Below, piece by piece: positions 24,518 through 28,004 of a stretch of DNA of 42,471 nucleotides. This stretch comes from a virus. Position numbers and translations under genes: made by a program. Positions within the stretch are counted from its first letter, which is position 1. The number at the start of each line of letters is the position of its first letter. The stretch lies in IMG/VR virus record IMGVR_UViG_3300042471_001244, positions 1 to 42,471 of that record; one strand, 5' to 3'. A model generated the notes under the pieces. It made no database searches, was not told where the DNA came from, and worked only from the letters and a program-made list of their open reading frames with translations.

Positions 24518-26200
24518 CTACCCTTCGCAGTTGGTCAGTTCGGGCACGTCGCCCATTTCGCACTCGCCGCAGGCTTGCACCGCTTTACGCCAATCGCCCT
24601 TGACGAACACCAGCACGTTTTGGTGTGTTTTCCCGAGCTTGCGTCCTGCTGAGAACTGCCGCCCCACCCGAATCGGCAGGCTCCCCACAGCCGTCACCAG
24701 CACAGCCTCGTTGTAGTAGTGGAGGCCCGCTGCGCGGAACGCCTCTACGGTGTCACCAACGAAGTTGTAGTAGTGGCCCTTGGAATCGCGCACGTCACCG
24801 ACGACGAAGCAAGCGAATCGGTCGGGTTTCAGCTGCGCGCAGGTCTTGGCGATGATTTCGCGGTACGCCTCGCGGAACTCTGCGTAGGGCATCGTGGACA
24901 GGTCTGCGGGGTCGTCCGAGTAGACCTCCAAGTCGGCGTAAGGCGGGCAGGAGAACACAAAGTCCGCAGCCACGTCGGGGCATACCTGCGGCATGTTCCG
25001 ACTGTCGCCAATCCGCCACTCGGGGGGAACCAGCGTGCCTTGCGGCTGCGCGGGGGCGATAGGCCCCCCGACAATCCAGAACAAGTCACCGGGCTGGAGG
25101 AAAGGCAGGGCCTTGGCCTCGTAGATAGGGTCAAGGTGCAGGCCCTCCAGCACAGCGTCCTGTGCTGGTTCCTCAAAAGGCAGCGCGCTGTGGACAAGCG
25201 TTACCCGGTCGCGCCAGCCTGCGGGGGCGAGCTGGTCGAGCGTATCGCTTGGATCGCCCCCGACGCATACACCCAGCACAGGGGTGTTCATTTGACGAGC
25301 GTCCAGCCCATGCAGGATGCCCGCAAGCGTGGTGCCCGAACCAACAGTCAACACGATGCGCGGCACGTCAGCCGGGATGTTTGCGGTCTGCGCCTGCACC
25401 ATCGTCACAGTTTTTGGGTGTACCGCACCGAACGGAATGTAGGCCCATTCCGGGGTTGCCTCCGCGTCGGCGTTTGCGCGCGCCTTGAGCACGGTCAACC
25501 GAGCGGGGGCGTGCTCTAGCAGCTCCGCGCCCGCCTCCTTGATGCGCTGCGTGTAGGGCGTCGGTGCGCCTGTGCCCGTGTGGCACCGAGCGGGAATCCC
25601 CAGGTGTTGCGCGACCAGCGCAGCGCGGGTGTTTTGCGGCGACGTGCGCGCACTGATGCTGATGAGTCCCGGTGCGCCTTGCGCCAGCAGCAGCGTTGCG
25701 CGGGCCTTGCCCCCGTTGGCTCCATTCACGCAGAACAAGTCCTCGCGTTTGAGCAGGTACGCACCCCGGCGCTCAACCGGGGTGAGCACGGCGGGGTCGG
25801 AAATAACATCCGCAGGCGGGCGTGTTGGCGTGCGCTGCGGAAAGAACGCGGCCCCCTGCTTGCGGTTTTCCAATACCTGCTCGGCGCGAAGTTCGACGCC
25901 CACATACCGCCGCCCGAGCGCGCCCGCCACGATGCCGCGCACGCTGCCGCCCGCGAACGGGTCCAGCACCGTCCCGCCAGGGGGGCAGAACCAGCGGTAC
26001 GCCAGCTCGCACAGCACCGGGTCGAAAATGCTGGTCCCGGAATGCAACGTGTGCGGCCCTTGGTAGTAGTCTCGCTGAAACTCCTCAGTGGTAAGCGTGC
26101 GCCCGAGTTGTGCTTCAACTTGTTGCTTTTTTGCATAGTAATAAGGGTCGTTCCCGGAATCGCTGGTCATCAACACGCCGTTGACCTTAGATGCAGTCAT
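24518..26200 (-). CDS. DNA methyltransferase with inserted PLP-dependent enzyme domain (560 aa)
   Basis: A class I SAM-dependent DNA methylase in two halves. Residues 60-115 hold motif I (VLDPFAGGSVRG, 78-89) and motif II (YVGVELR). Residues 415-535 hold catalytic motif IV (SCPPY, 417-421) and the C-terminal KTHQNVLVFVKG. Between them (about 140-380) is a complete fold-type-II PLP enzyme like ACC deaminase or D-cysteine desulfhydrase: KREDLF, a candidate PLP lysine at 165 in NGGKAR, and the phosphate loop TVGSGTTLAG (285-294). Both catalytic sets look intact. The chosen ATG follows 11 Gs; an in-frame start 47 codons earlier (26341) overlaps the ParB stop by ATGA. It likely modifies phage DNA; substrate unknown. 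Confidence 0.85.
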   Translation of the reverse strand: MTASKVNGVLMTSDSGNDPYYYAKKQQVEAQLGRTLTTEEFQRDYYQGPHTLHSGTSIFDPVLCELAYRWFCPPGGTVLDPFAGGSVRGIVAGALGRRYVGVELRAEQVLENRKQGAAFFPQRTPTRPPADVISDPAVLTPVERRGAYLLKREDLFCVNGANGGKARATLLLAQGAPGLISISARTSPQNTRAALVAQHLGIPARCHTGTGAPTPYTQRIKEAGAELLEHAPARLTVLKARANADAEATPEWAYIPFGAVHPKTVTMVQAQTANIPADVPRIVLTVGSGTTLAGILHGLDARQMNTPVLGVCVGGDPSDTLDQLAPAGWRDRVTLVHSALPFEEPAQDAVLEGLHLDPIYEAKALPFLQPGDLFWIVGGPIAPAQPQGTLVPPEWRIGDSRNMPQVCPDVAADFVFSCPPYADLEVYSDDPADLSTMPYAEFREAYREIIAKTCAQLKPDRFACFVVGDVRDSKGHYYNFVGDTVEAFRAAGLHYYNEAVLVTAVGSLPIRVGRQFSAGRKLGKTHQNVLVFVKGDWRKAVQACGECEMGDVPELTNCEG

Positions 26201-26283
26201 ACCCCCCCCCCCGTTTTGTTTGCGGGGGGGTTGCCCTCGCCGCGCATCAAGTCCTGCCCGAAACACCGAGCGTAGTTTTTCAT
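26197..26283 (-). CDS. Micro-ORF upstream of the fused methyltransferase (28 aa)
   Basis: An ORF of 28 codons (MKNYARCFGQDLMRGEGNPP then ANKTGGGV) with AAAGGG six bases before its ATG. Its TGA overlaps the methyltransferase ATG (ATGA), so it could couple translation of the next gene. It runs through the 11-G tract. Its own start overlaps the stop of another 15-codon ORF (MRRAGKYAQRPKGTK, 26327-26280). Conservation is unknown, so it may be a regulatory leader or a chance ORF. Confidence 0.35.
   Translation of the reverse strand: MKNYARCFGQDLMRGEGNPPANKTGGGV
26202..26230. repeat. 11-base poly-G tract and flanking poly-C stem
   Basis: On the minus strand, CCCCCCC (26224-26230 region) is followed by a loop of about 11 bases and then 11 consecutive Gs (26202-26212), ending one base before the methyltransferase ATG. 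The two tracts can pair as a GC stem next to the start codon. A G tract of this length is prone to slippage. Confidence 0.7.
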
Positions 26284-26337
26284 TTGGTGCCCTTTGGGCG
26301 CTGCGCGTATTTGCCCGCGCGCCGCATGATTTCGCGC

Positions 26338-27105
26338 TCATTTGACGCTATCGCCCCGAGGGTGCTTTCCGCTGGGGGGGTGAGCCTTCATTGGGCTGGG
26401 CATCCCCGCCCGTGCGCGTGCCAGCGGCTCCGGCGACCCCCCCGTTGGAGCACCGCGCCCAAGCTCTGATTGGATGCCGAGCGCCAGCCAAGCGCGCTTG
26501 CGATCTTGCCACCAGCCCTCCCGCGCGTTCAGCACTGTGAAGGGCACGATTCCAAAACGGTCAGCCAGCCCGTTGCGCTGAAAATCCAGCGGGGGCGCAG
26601 CAGGGGTCGGGTCGGGTTGGTCTGCGGTGTCGGTGCTCCCCGTGGGAAGCGCAGCGAGCATCGCGGACAGCTCTGAATCCGCCAGCGCGAGGTCGAGCGC
26701 GAGGTTCGCAGCGTCGATGTCGGCCTCGATGCTTTTCACCAGGTCCGCCAGCAGTGCGTCGTCGAACTCACCGCGACGGTTGTTCATGGCGATGGTCAGC
26801 GCCTTGGCGCGGGCCTCGGGGATTCCGTCGAGGAACACCATCGGCCCCTCGGTGAATCCGATCTCGCGCGCCACGGTCCATCGGTGCTCCCCGTCGATAA
26901 TCGCGTCCCGGCGTGCGCCCTTGTCGTCGGTGCCCCACACCAGCAGGGCTTGTGACGCCAGCCAGCCGTCCTGCTTGAGCGCGTGCCGCAGGGACTCATA
27001 CACATGCGGAGCCATGCGGTTCGGATTCCAGCCGTTCGGGCGCACCGACGACAGCGGGCGCATCTCGACTGTCCCGACAACGGAACCGCCAGACAATGTG
27101 CTCAC
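26338..27105 (-). CDS. ParB-like nuclease-domain protein 2 (255 aa)
   Basis: A ParB-fold protein with the core DAIIDGEHRWTVAREIG (GEHR at residues 72-75) and a later AKALTIAMNNRRGEFDDALL segment typical of the family. Residues 150-180 form a Pro-rich linker and the C-terminus holds FGIVPFTVLNAREGWWQDRK. That C-terminal segment is a motif I have seen joined to ParB domains in phage modification operons. It begins at a GTG overlapping the glycosyltransferase stop (GTGA). Confidence 0.85.
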   Translation of the reverse strand: MSTLSGGSVVGTVEMRPLSSVRPNGWNPNRMAPHVYESLRHALKQDGWLASQALLVWGTDDKGARRDAIIDGEHRWTVAREIGFTEGPMVFLDGIPEARAKALTIAMNNRRGEFDDALLADLVKSIEADIDAANLALDLALADSELSAMLAALPTGSTDTADQPDPTPAAPPLDFQRNGLADRFGIVPFTVLNAREGWWQDRKRAWLALGIQSELGRGAPTGGSPEPLARARAGMPSPMKAHPPSGKHPRGDSVK

Positions 27106-28004
27106 GAGTCCCCCATTCGCACCCGCAGGGCGGGGCGCAGATTAGATGCCTTGCGGTGCTGTTCTCGGAGGATGAGCGGGACCGTATGGTGCCAGTTGAT
27201 TGCATGGTGGATGCGGTACTTGCCCGAGCGCGGGTCGCCCATCTCACCCGCGCGAACACACGATGGCGCATACATCACAGAATAGAACGATTTGACGTAT
27301 GTCCCGCTGTCCAGATACAGGTCGGTCATACCGCCAGCGTTTGACTGCGTTTGGATTTGCACCAGTTTGGCTTGAAGCACTGTGAAGAACAGCAGGCCCC
27401 GACGACCTCCTGCGGTGTAGGTGTTCACGTCCTCGTTGACACGCCCGAAAAACTGGAACGGGCGCTCTGTCGAGCAGATAAACGAGTTCATCGCCTTGCG
27501 CCGCAAACTCGGGTGCATCGGATGCAGGGAATCCCCACCGATATGATCCCCGCCCTGGCTCAACGCGATGCTGTGCGCGGGAGTGCCCTTGTAGAAGTCG
27601 AGCAAGGCCACGAGCATCTGGTCCAGGTGCGACACGCGCGCGTACCCGTAGTCATGCTGCGCGCCAAAACGCAGCTCAAAATTGGTGTAGTCGTCGTCCA
27701 GCTGGATGAAGTATGTGCACCCAACCTGCCGCGCGAGGTCGAAGCAGGCGTTGCGCGCGTAGATGATCGCGCGGCGGTCGTTGAAGTTATCCCCCTCGTC
27801 GAAGGTCTTGGCGATCTCACGTTTCGAGAACATCAGCACGATGTCACCGAATCGGCGGCGGTACTCGTCAGCAGTCTTGTCCTCGTCGTCAATGACGATG
27901 TACACCTTGCCCGTGTACCCCGAGCGTTTCAGCGTTTCGTAGGTGTAGACACGATCCGGGCGTCCGTGCGTCAGAATGAACGCGCAGAAGTCAGTCGGCA
28001 CCAT
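27102..28004 (-). CDS. Putative DNA-modifying glycosyltransferase, TAGT-like (300 aa)
   Basis: A GT-A-fold glycosyltransferase candidate of the kind called TET-associated glycosyltransferase in phage hypermodification clusters. Evidence: N-terminal FILTHGRPDRVYTYETLKRS, a nucleotide-sugar-like VYIVIDDEDKT (34-44), and a metal-binding QLDDDYTNF (101-109), followed by conserved-looking MNSFICSTERPF, GRVNEDVNTYTAGGR, DLYLDSGTYVKSFYSVMY and INWHHTVP. AAGGAGGG precedes the ATG. Its last residues (LRPALRVRMG) and DNA are shared with the SbcC 3' end. No TET dioxygenase is in this window, so the acceptor base is unknown. Confidence 0.7.
   Translation of the reverse strand: MVPTDFCAFILTHGRPDRVYTYETLKRSGYTGKVYIVIDDEDKTADEYRRRFGDIVLMFSKREIAKTFDEGDNFNDRRAIIYARNACFDLARQVGCTYFIQLDDDYTNFELRFGAQHDYGYARVSHLDQMLVALLDFYKGTPAHSIALSQGGDHIGGDSLHPMHPSLRRKAMNSFICSTERPFQFFGRVNEDVNTYTAGGRRGLLFFTVLQAKLVQIQTQSNAGGMTDLYLDSGTYVKSFYSVMYAPSCVRAGEMGDPRSGKYRIHHAINWHHTVPLILREQHRKASNLRPALRVRMGDS
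27112..27143. repeat. 32-bp direct repeat, left copy
   Basis: Exact copy of 28831-28862 (plus-strand sequence begins CCCATTCGCACCCGCAGG). It lies at the 3' end of the glycosyltransferase gene and encodes its final LRPALRVRMG residues. Together with the other copy it brackets the ParB-1 and glycosyltransferase genes. Confidence 0.9.

Follow-up and report, generated by a model that had tools for sequence, protein, structure and literature searches.

PLP enzymes are already known to take part in phage DNA hypermodification. In Glutamicibacter phage Montesquieu, an ACC-deaminase-like PLP gene (L248:4974-5876) lies beside a gene for alpha-glutamyl/putrescinyl thymine pyrophosphorylase. Such clusters resemble the locus described here in that a phage fold-type-II PLP protein is found among DNA-modification genes, but they belong to a separate pathway for thymine, and no match to its partner genes was seen in the window, the 42,471-base viral record IMGVR_UViG_3300042471_001244. 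The ParB-methyltransferases of PHROG 498 (Listeria phage B054 gp77 and Enterococcus phage phiFL3A gp36), which often adjoin terminase genes, share with our locus a permuted CPPY SAM-transferase domain and a ParB-like domain. They differ from it in that no PLP enzyme is inserted in them or was found in the genomes of B054 and phiFL3A at the sensitivity used. In the R6L paper, the copy of that phage is presented as CcrM-like, a methylase of one domain. No description of a PLP/methylase chimera was found in open-access full texts on PLP in DNA hypermodification, on aminopropyl DNA modification or on the R6L and Pam4 proteins. The component superfamilies are already known, and what is new in this analysis is a sister clade with an altered motif I and an AdoMet decarboxylase as partner. 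Transfer of the SAM side chain, if confirmed, would be a chemistry new for DNA as far as known.

A PLP enzyme inside a circularly permuted transferase

The window contains genes with profile matches to terminase, portal, DNA polymerase, helicase, primase, SbcCD, UvsX-like protein and SSB. The features of the reading frame under study and of its surroundings are listed in Table 1. A sequence-only reading had described a single frame holding SAM motif I, a fold-type-II PLP enzyme and then SCPPY with the methylase C terminus. This description was borne out. The ORF is open, neither a stop nor a change of frame interrupts the methylase/PLP/methylase part, and all motifs were found, including the KREDLF segment, the candidate Schiff-base lysine and the phosphate loop that had been named. 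An assembly or frameshift artefact was rejected for the domains, because the ORF is open and the same layout recurs in three sequenced phage genomes and in more than 50 distinct sequences.

Table 1. Features of the PLP-inserted transferase locus in the window
Feature	Position	Strand	Remarks
PLP-inserted transferase, complete ORF	24518..26341	(-)	607 aa; 560 aa if the start is Met48 (26200)
Transferase domain, N-terminal half, residues ~100-165	25847..26044	(-)	PF01555 residues 117-156; alignment with insert-free Mae-JY30
SAM motif I DPFAGGSVRG, residues 127-136	25934..25963	(-)	includes Arg135
Fold-type-II PLP domain (insert), residues ~178-432	25046..25810	(-)	PALP PF00291, AlphaFold2, Foldseek
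Schiff-base Lys212 (Lys165 from Met48), GGKAR	25706..25708	(-)	invariant, 158/158; aligned to the lysine of D-cysteine desulfhydrase GGNK
PLP phosphate-binding glycine loop VGSGTTLAG, residue 333	25319..25345	(-)	GSG kept in 156/158
YEAK motif (YxAK), Tyr407	25112..25123	(-)	Tyr 157/158, Lys 158/158
Transferase domain, C-terminal half, residues ~440-596	24554..25024	(-)	PHROG 498 and 12517 matches; alignments
Motif IV SCPPY, residues 464-468, Cys465 (Cys418 from Met48)	24938..24952	(-)	conservation given in the text
ParB-like protein	26338..27105	(-)	ends in linker; stop overlaps ATG of next ORF (ATGA)
11-G homopolymer directly upstream of Met48	26202..26212	(-)	linker frame changes here relative to relatives

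The PALP profile matched with 42.7 bits (cut-off 35; 5.7e-11) and was nested inside the N6_N4_Mtase match (PF01555; 38.1 bits, cut-off 26.7, 2.1e-9), which scored on the motif I segment only. PHROG 498 (ParB-methyltransferase) covered residues 66-596 and matched on either side of the insert. The insert follows the segment of motifs I-II/III and precedes motif IV, the position claimed in the sequence-only reading; among IMG/VR sequences motifs I and IV are 318-355 residues apart in PLP-inserted proteins versus 68-71 in insert-free relatives. Motif I comes before motif IV, the reverse of the order in PF01555, which amounts to a circular permutation. TTHA0409 (TSPPY), the closest solved relative by sequence, aligned as two swapped pieces. 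In the aligned members, motif IV begins with Cys (CPPY) and thus departs from the pattern [DNS]PP[YFW]. SCPPY was invariant in the PLP-inserted set and was also kept in insert-free and AdoMetDC-linked members.

AlphaFold2 modeled the window protein with a mean pLDDT of 85, and blocks of the PLP region mostly reached 88-98. Structure prediction had been put forward as a check for two folded domains with joined methylase halves. The insert was indeed confidently folded. Both domains fold, and at a pTM of 0.58 their mutual placement is not fixed by the model. An insert-free relative was predicted to adopt the class-I SAM methyltransferase fold. The best Foldseek match of the PLP domain was D-cysteine desulfhydrase (4d8t, E 8.6e-13, TM (target) 0.63), with ACC deaminase and threonine deaminase next in rank, in agreement with the fold type originally proposed, and a profile search of PDB sequences also arrived at D-cysteine desulfhydrase. 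Tyr407 sits in an LDPxYxxK segment, for which LDPVYTGK is the aligned counterpart in D-cysteine desulfhydrase. The family model TIGR01275 (D-cysteine desulfhydrase/ACC deaminase) reached 20.1 bits against a cut-off of 289.4, and CuyA and PRK03910-type models likewise remained far under their cut-offs. Both active sites had been considered intact, and comparison across the family showed that the catalytic residues are kept; the lysine on which the assignment hinged did not vary among 158 non-redundant PLP domains (Table 1). The PLP active site is, as judged from this comparison, under purifying selection, and the domain is predicted to be catalytically intact.

In relatives, the linker of the ParB-like domain runs into the transferase within one ORF. 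In the window, the conserved linker sequence FGQDLMRGEG lies in a different frame upstream of the 11-G tract, which is possibly a site of phase-variable slippage or an assembly error. The tract and the shift of the linker frame make the translation start uncertain, and the anomaly affects neither the transferase nor the PLP domain. By analogy with SerK/SbnI and SbnA, the ParB domain may be a kinase making O-phosphoserine to feed the PLP enzyme, but ParB also occurs in loci that lack PLP.

A TET-associated glycosyltransferase gene (PF20691, 1.6e-31) was seen at positions 27102-28004 of the window, flanked by two ParB-like genes. As a regular partner of PLP loci this glycosyltransferase (TAGT) was rejected, because it is absent from the recurrent neighbor clusters of 158 distinct PLP loci. 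The suggested link to thymine hypermodification found no corroboration: among the window ORFs scanned there was no match to thymidylate synthase/hydroxymethylase, dUMP hydroxymethylase, kinase, pyrophosphorylase or TET/JBP, in a record that may be incomplete.

Partnership of PLP enzyme and transferase across phages

Phage methylases of this family were found both with and without the insertion, as the sequence-only reading had anticipated in calling for such a search. The PLP-inserted layout recurs in dozens of viral contigs and in the sequenced phages Pam4 (gene Pam4_70), R6L and ZS04, whose proteins also include a ParB-like domain. The PLP domains fall into two subtypes, A in the window and Pam4 and B in R6L and ZS04. 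As a rule, type B is encoded on its own, by a gene of ~236 residues that adjoins the transferase gene; when type B was used alone as query, 80 loci were obtained and a transferase was present in 74 of them. Among 183 distinct CPPY transferases, PLP was inserted in 60 cases (54 of type A, 6 of type B), C-terminally fused in 6, adjacent (<200 nt) in 66 and nearby in 16; 35 were without PLP, 24 of these near contig ends. Inserted, C-terminally fused or adjacent PLP thus accounted for 132/183, counts that depend on the seeds of the searches and should not be taken as prevalences.

Separate PLP genes occur in the cultured phage Mae-JY30, where the gene carries the annotation 'DNA modification methylase', and in the mycobacteriophages Vincenzo (PLP gene 2, transferase gene 1) and AlanGrant. 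Transferases without a detected PLP gene occur in the sequenced phages phiFL3A, B054 and HCTV-2. A PLP gene elsewhere in the genome was not found for transferases seemingly without PLP when the whole records of 20 loci were searched, a search that had no positive control.

On a FastTree phylogeny of the transferases, 27 changes between fused and separate forms and 20 changes between types A and B were counted. Support is weak at many forks, so that only "many times" is a safe statement. As far as this tree can tell, the fusion of PLP enzyme and transferase is one that was gained or lost many times. Repeated fusion or splitting is a classical sign of functional coupling. Together these comparisons argue strongly for PLP chemistry as part of the activity of this candidate DNA-modifying enzyme.

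Several variants of the architecture were recorded. In L051 (5728-8628), an intein with LAGLIDADG and splicing-domain matches lies immediately before CPPY of a PLP-inserted transferase, a position at which splicing would gate the active site. L031, L114, L145 and L154 carry an added Cys-rich domain (CGGxCC...PVxCxLYPL) between the PLP domain and motif IV, and the three of these that were tested gave no Pfam match for it. In L050, L070 and HCTV-2 (gene 12, L250:4826-5467), a PLP-less CPPY transferase is directly followed by a methylase-like gene in which SLPD replaces SPPY and which may encode a second transferase, inactive or altered. Related PP-loop ATPase genes were seen in L065 (1504-2802), directly behind the transferase, and in Staphylococcus phage Alsa_1 (L247), overlapping a PLP gene and close to a methylase with SPPY. 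The PP-loop ATPase is a possible third kind of partner.

A sister clade paired with AdoMet decarboxylase

Phages P2559S (Croceibacter) and ZRG1 (Pseudomonas) encode a CPPY transferase without PLP, and the 3' end of the gene is overlapped by a gene for AdoMet decarboxylase (Pfam matches 2.1e-19 and 1.6e-23, respectively). The motif I of these transferases reads FAGDTVFG versus FAGGSVRG. Their use as queries yielded 80 further loci, and 302 CPPY transferase ORFs were then sorted by motif I and partner gene. The 222 ORFs of the FAGG...R type comprised 181 with PLP, 41 with neither partner and none with a decarboxylase. In the 79 ORFs of the FAGD type (FAGD[ST]VFG), a decarboxylase gene overlapped or abutted in 71 (L253, L255 and 69 among L256-L335), was lacking in 8, and PLP was never present. 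The one remaining ORF, of type FAGA...R, had PLP. Seven of the 8 FAGD members lacking a decarboxylase have room for one on their contigs. These 8 and the 41 FAGGSVRG members lacking PLP imply that neither partner is strictly required. The decarboxylases keep their processing and catalytic residues (SHxxxHTxPE).

The 63 distinct sequences of the FAGD type grouped in a single clade with support 100. Given this single origin, the covariation of motif I and partner represents one evolutionary switch that was widely retained, not many events. Nine alignment columns divide the two types, and three of them lie within the motif I loop, where the FAGD type has Cys for Pro, Asp for Gly and Phe for Arg. 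The arginine concerned, Arg135 in the window, was present in 185/185 sequences of the FAGG type and is Phe in the AdoMetDC-linked clade.

The P2559S decarboxylase is a bona fide AdoMetDC that restores spermidine in an Escherichia coli speD mutant (PMC9992855); the words "methylase" and "methyltransferase" are absent from the main text of that paper. That phage AdoMetDC homologues are ornithine/arginine decarboxylases was considered (PMC10407285) and rejected in view of the published AdoMetDC activity of the P2559S enzyme. The decarboxylase of this clade could also have its role in making polyamines, which would tell against the proposal of side-chain transfer set out below.

Side-chain transfer and competing explanations

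The transferase need not be a methylase, a possibility absent from the sequence-only reading. The AdoMet-decarboxylase sister clade, as a pattern of motifs and partner genes, points to transfer of the SAM side chain. Decarboxylated SAM is known to be the universal aminopropyl donor. Spermidine synthase, a Rossmann-like enzyme, holds the amine of decarboxylated SAM through Asp residues by its glycine-rich region (PMC6514230). With a dedicated decarboxylase, an invariant Arg lost and an Asp gained in the SAM loop, the most plausible reading of the FAGD transferase is that of an aminopropyl transferase. Its homologues in the FAGGSVRG branch would then transfer the side chain with its carboxylate, the 3-amino-3-carboxypropyl (acp) group. 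Tyw2, with its Rossmann-fold methyltransferase-like structure, transfers acp to RNA (PMC7026641). Because acp, in contrast to methyl, is an alpha-amino acid, its transfer would supply the PLP enzyme with a substrate. PLP enzymes and AdoMet decarboxylase both act on alpha-amino acids through a Schiff base. Motif I does not differ between transferases that have PLP and those that lack it, and the two sorts are interleaved on the tree, so the PLP step probably comes after transfer.

Our leading proposal, which we advance tentatively and rate a little short of an even chance, is that the transferase moves the acp group of SAM onto a DNA base and that the PLP domain acts on the amino acid so attached. 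It agrees with the sequence-only reading in that the base would carry a group derived from an amino acid. The CPPY class-I transferase, usually joined to a ParB-like domain, would bind SAM and transfer acp rather than methyl to the presumed substrate, a base of DNA. The PLP domain would make an aldimine with the base-borne amino acid and would then convert it by deamination or by elimination/replacement at C-alpha/C-beta, as ACC deaminase and D-cysteine desulfhydrase do, so that the final base would presumably bear the product of this conversion. In the AdoMetDC branch, decarboxylated SAM would be the donor and aminopropyl the group transferred. We know of no fold-type-II PLP enzyme acting on a DNA-linked substrate. 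The wider proposition, that this phage "methylase" family attaches acp (PLP branch) or aminopropyl (AdoMetDC branch) to DNA and that the PLP-branch polypeptide both attaches and remodels the amino acid, is held with greater reserve, as possible rather than expected.

Unlikely, yet to be taken seriously, is an ordinary N4-cytosine/N6-adenine methylase with Cys for the Ser of SPPY, next to which the PLP enzyme separately builds an amino-acid-derived group or attaches it to a base; the protein would then carry out two modifications, of which the first is simple methylation. This fits the TSPPY of TTHA0409, the PF01555 match and the existence of insert-free members without PLP in phiFL3A, B054 and HCTV-2. 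A methylated base, however, gives the PLP enzyme no amino acid, and the exchange for AdoMet decarboxylase together with the altered SAM loop in the sister clade would be left unexplained.

Tailoring of free SAM by the PLP domain before the transferase moves the altered side chain is improbable in our view. It would be a functional parallel to AdoMet decarboxylase occupying the same slot, and an insert beside the SAM-binding half would permit channeling. The shared motif I and the interleaving of PLP-containing and PLP-less transferases on the tree argue against it, since both apparently use the same cofactor.

We give somewhat less credit still to the notion of the PLP domain as a cysteine/D-cysteine desulfhydrase-like source of sulfide for DNA thiolation, or as an enzyme of amino-acid metabolism that merely travels along. 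The best fold and profile matches are to D-cysteine desulfhydrase, a PAPS-reductase-like gene lies a few kb off in R6L and ZS04, and a PP-loop gene adjoins the transferase in L065 and the PLP gene in Alsa_1. On the other hand, the scores of TIGR01275, CuyA and PRK03910-type models are far below cut-off, no sulfur-handling gene was recognized by eye in the recurrent neighbor clusters of the 158 distinct loci, and repeated building into a catalytic domain is not expected of a metabolic passenger.

We regard it as very improbable that the insert has ceased to use PLP and survives as a structural or regulatory relic: type-B domains are short with a marginal PALP match (L084, 34.4 bits against the cut-off of 35), but the catalytic Lys, the Tyr and the phosphate loop are essentially invariant in types A and B and in all architectures.

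It is possible that this large family, though annotated as DNA methyltransferase, does no methylation at all. Side-chain transfer, if true, would parallel in DNA the acp modification of RNA and would give phages a new means of hiding their DNA from restriction and CRISPR. Phage AdoMet decarboxylase genes hitherto read as polyamine enzymes could also be explained in a new way. The idea is directly testable, because cultured phages exist on both branches: Vincenzo (host Mycobacterium smegmatis mc2 155), Pam4 and R6L on the one, P2559S and ZRG1 on the other.

Compared with D-cysteine desulfhydrase and ACC deaminase, the window insert has in common the fold, the Schiff-base Lys segment, LDPxYxxK and the glycine loop, but it is only ~20% identical, shorter and embedded in a DNA transferase, and it lacks the Asn of their SNQ motif, which reads SPQ in most type-A domains. 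The acp transferases Tyw2/Trm12 and Tsr3/TuaA resemble the CPPY family in the proposed chemistry, acp transfer to a nucleobase; they differ in having RNA substrates and no PLP partner. Spermidine synthase, Rossmann-like and using decarboxylated SAM, parallels the AdoMetDC-linked clade but has a small-molecule acceptor. For all of these transferases, the demonstrated kinship with the CPPY family goes no further than the fold class.
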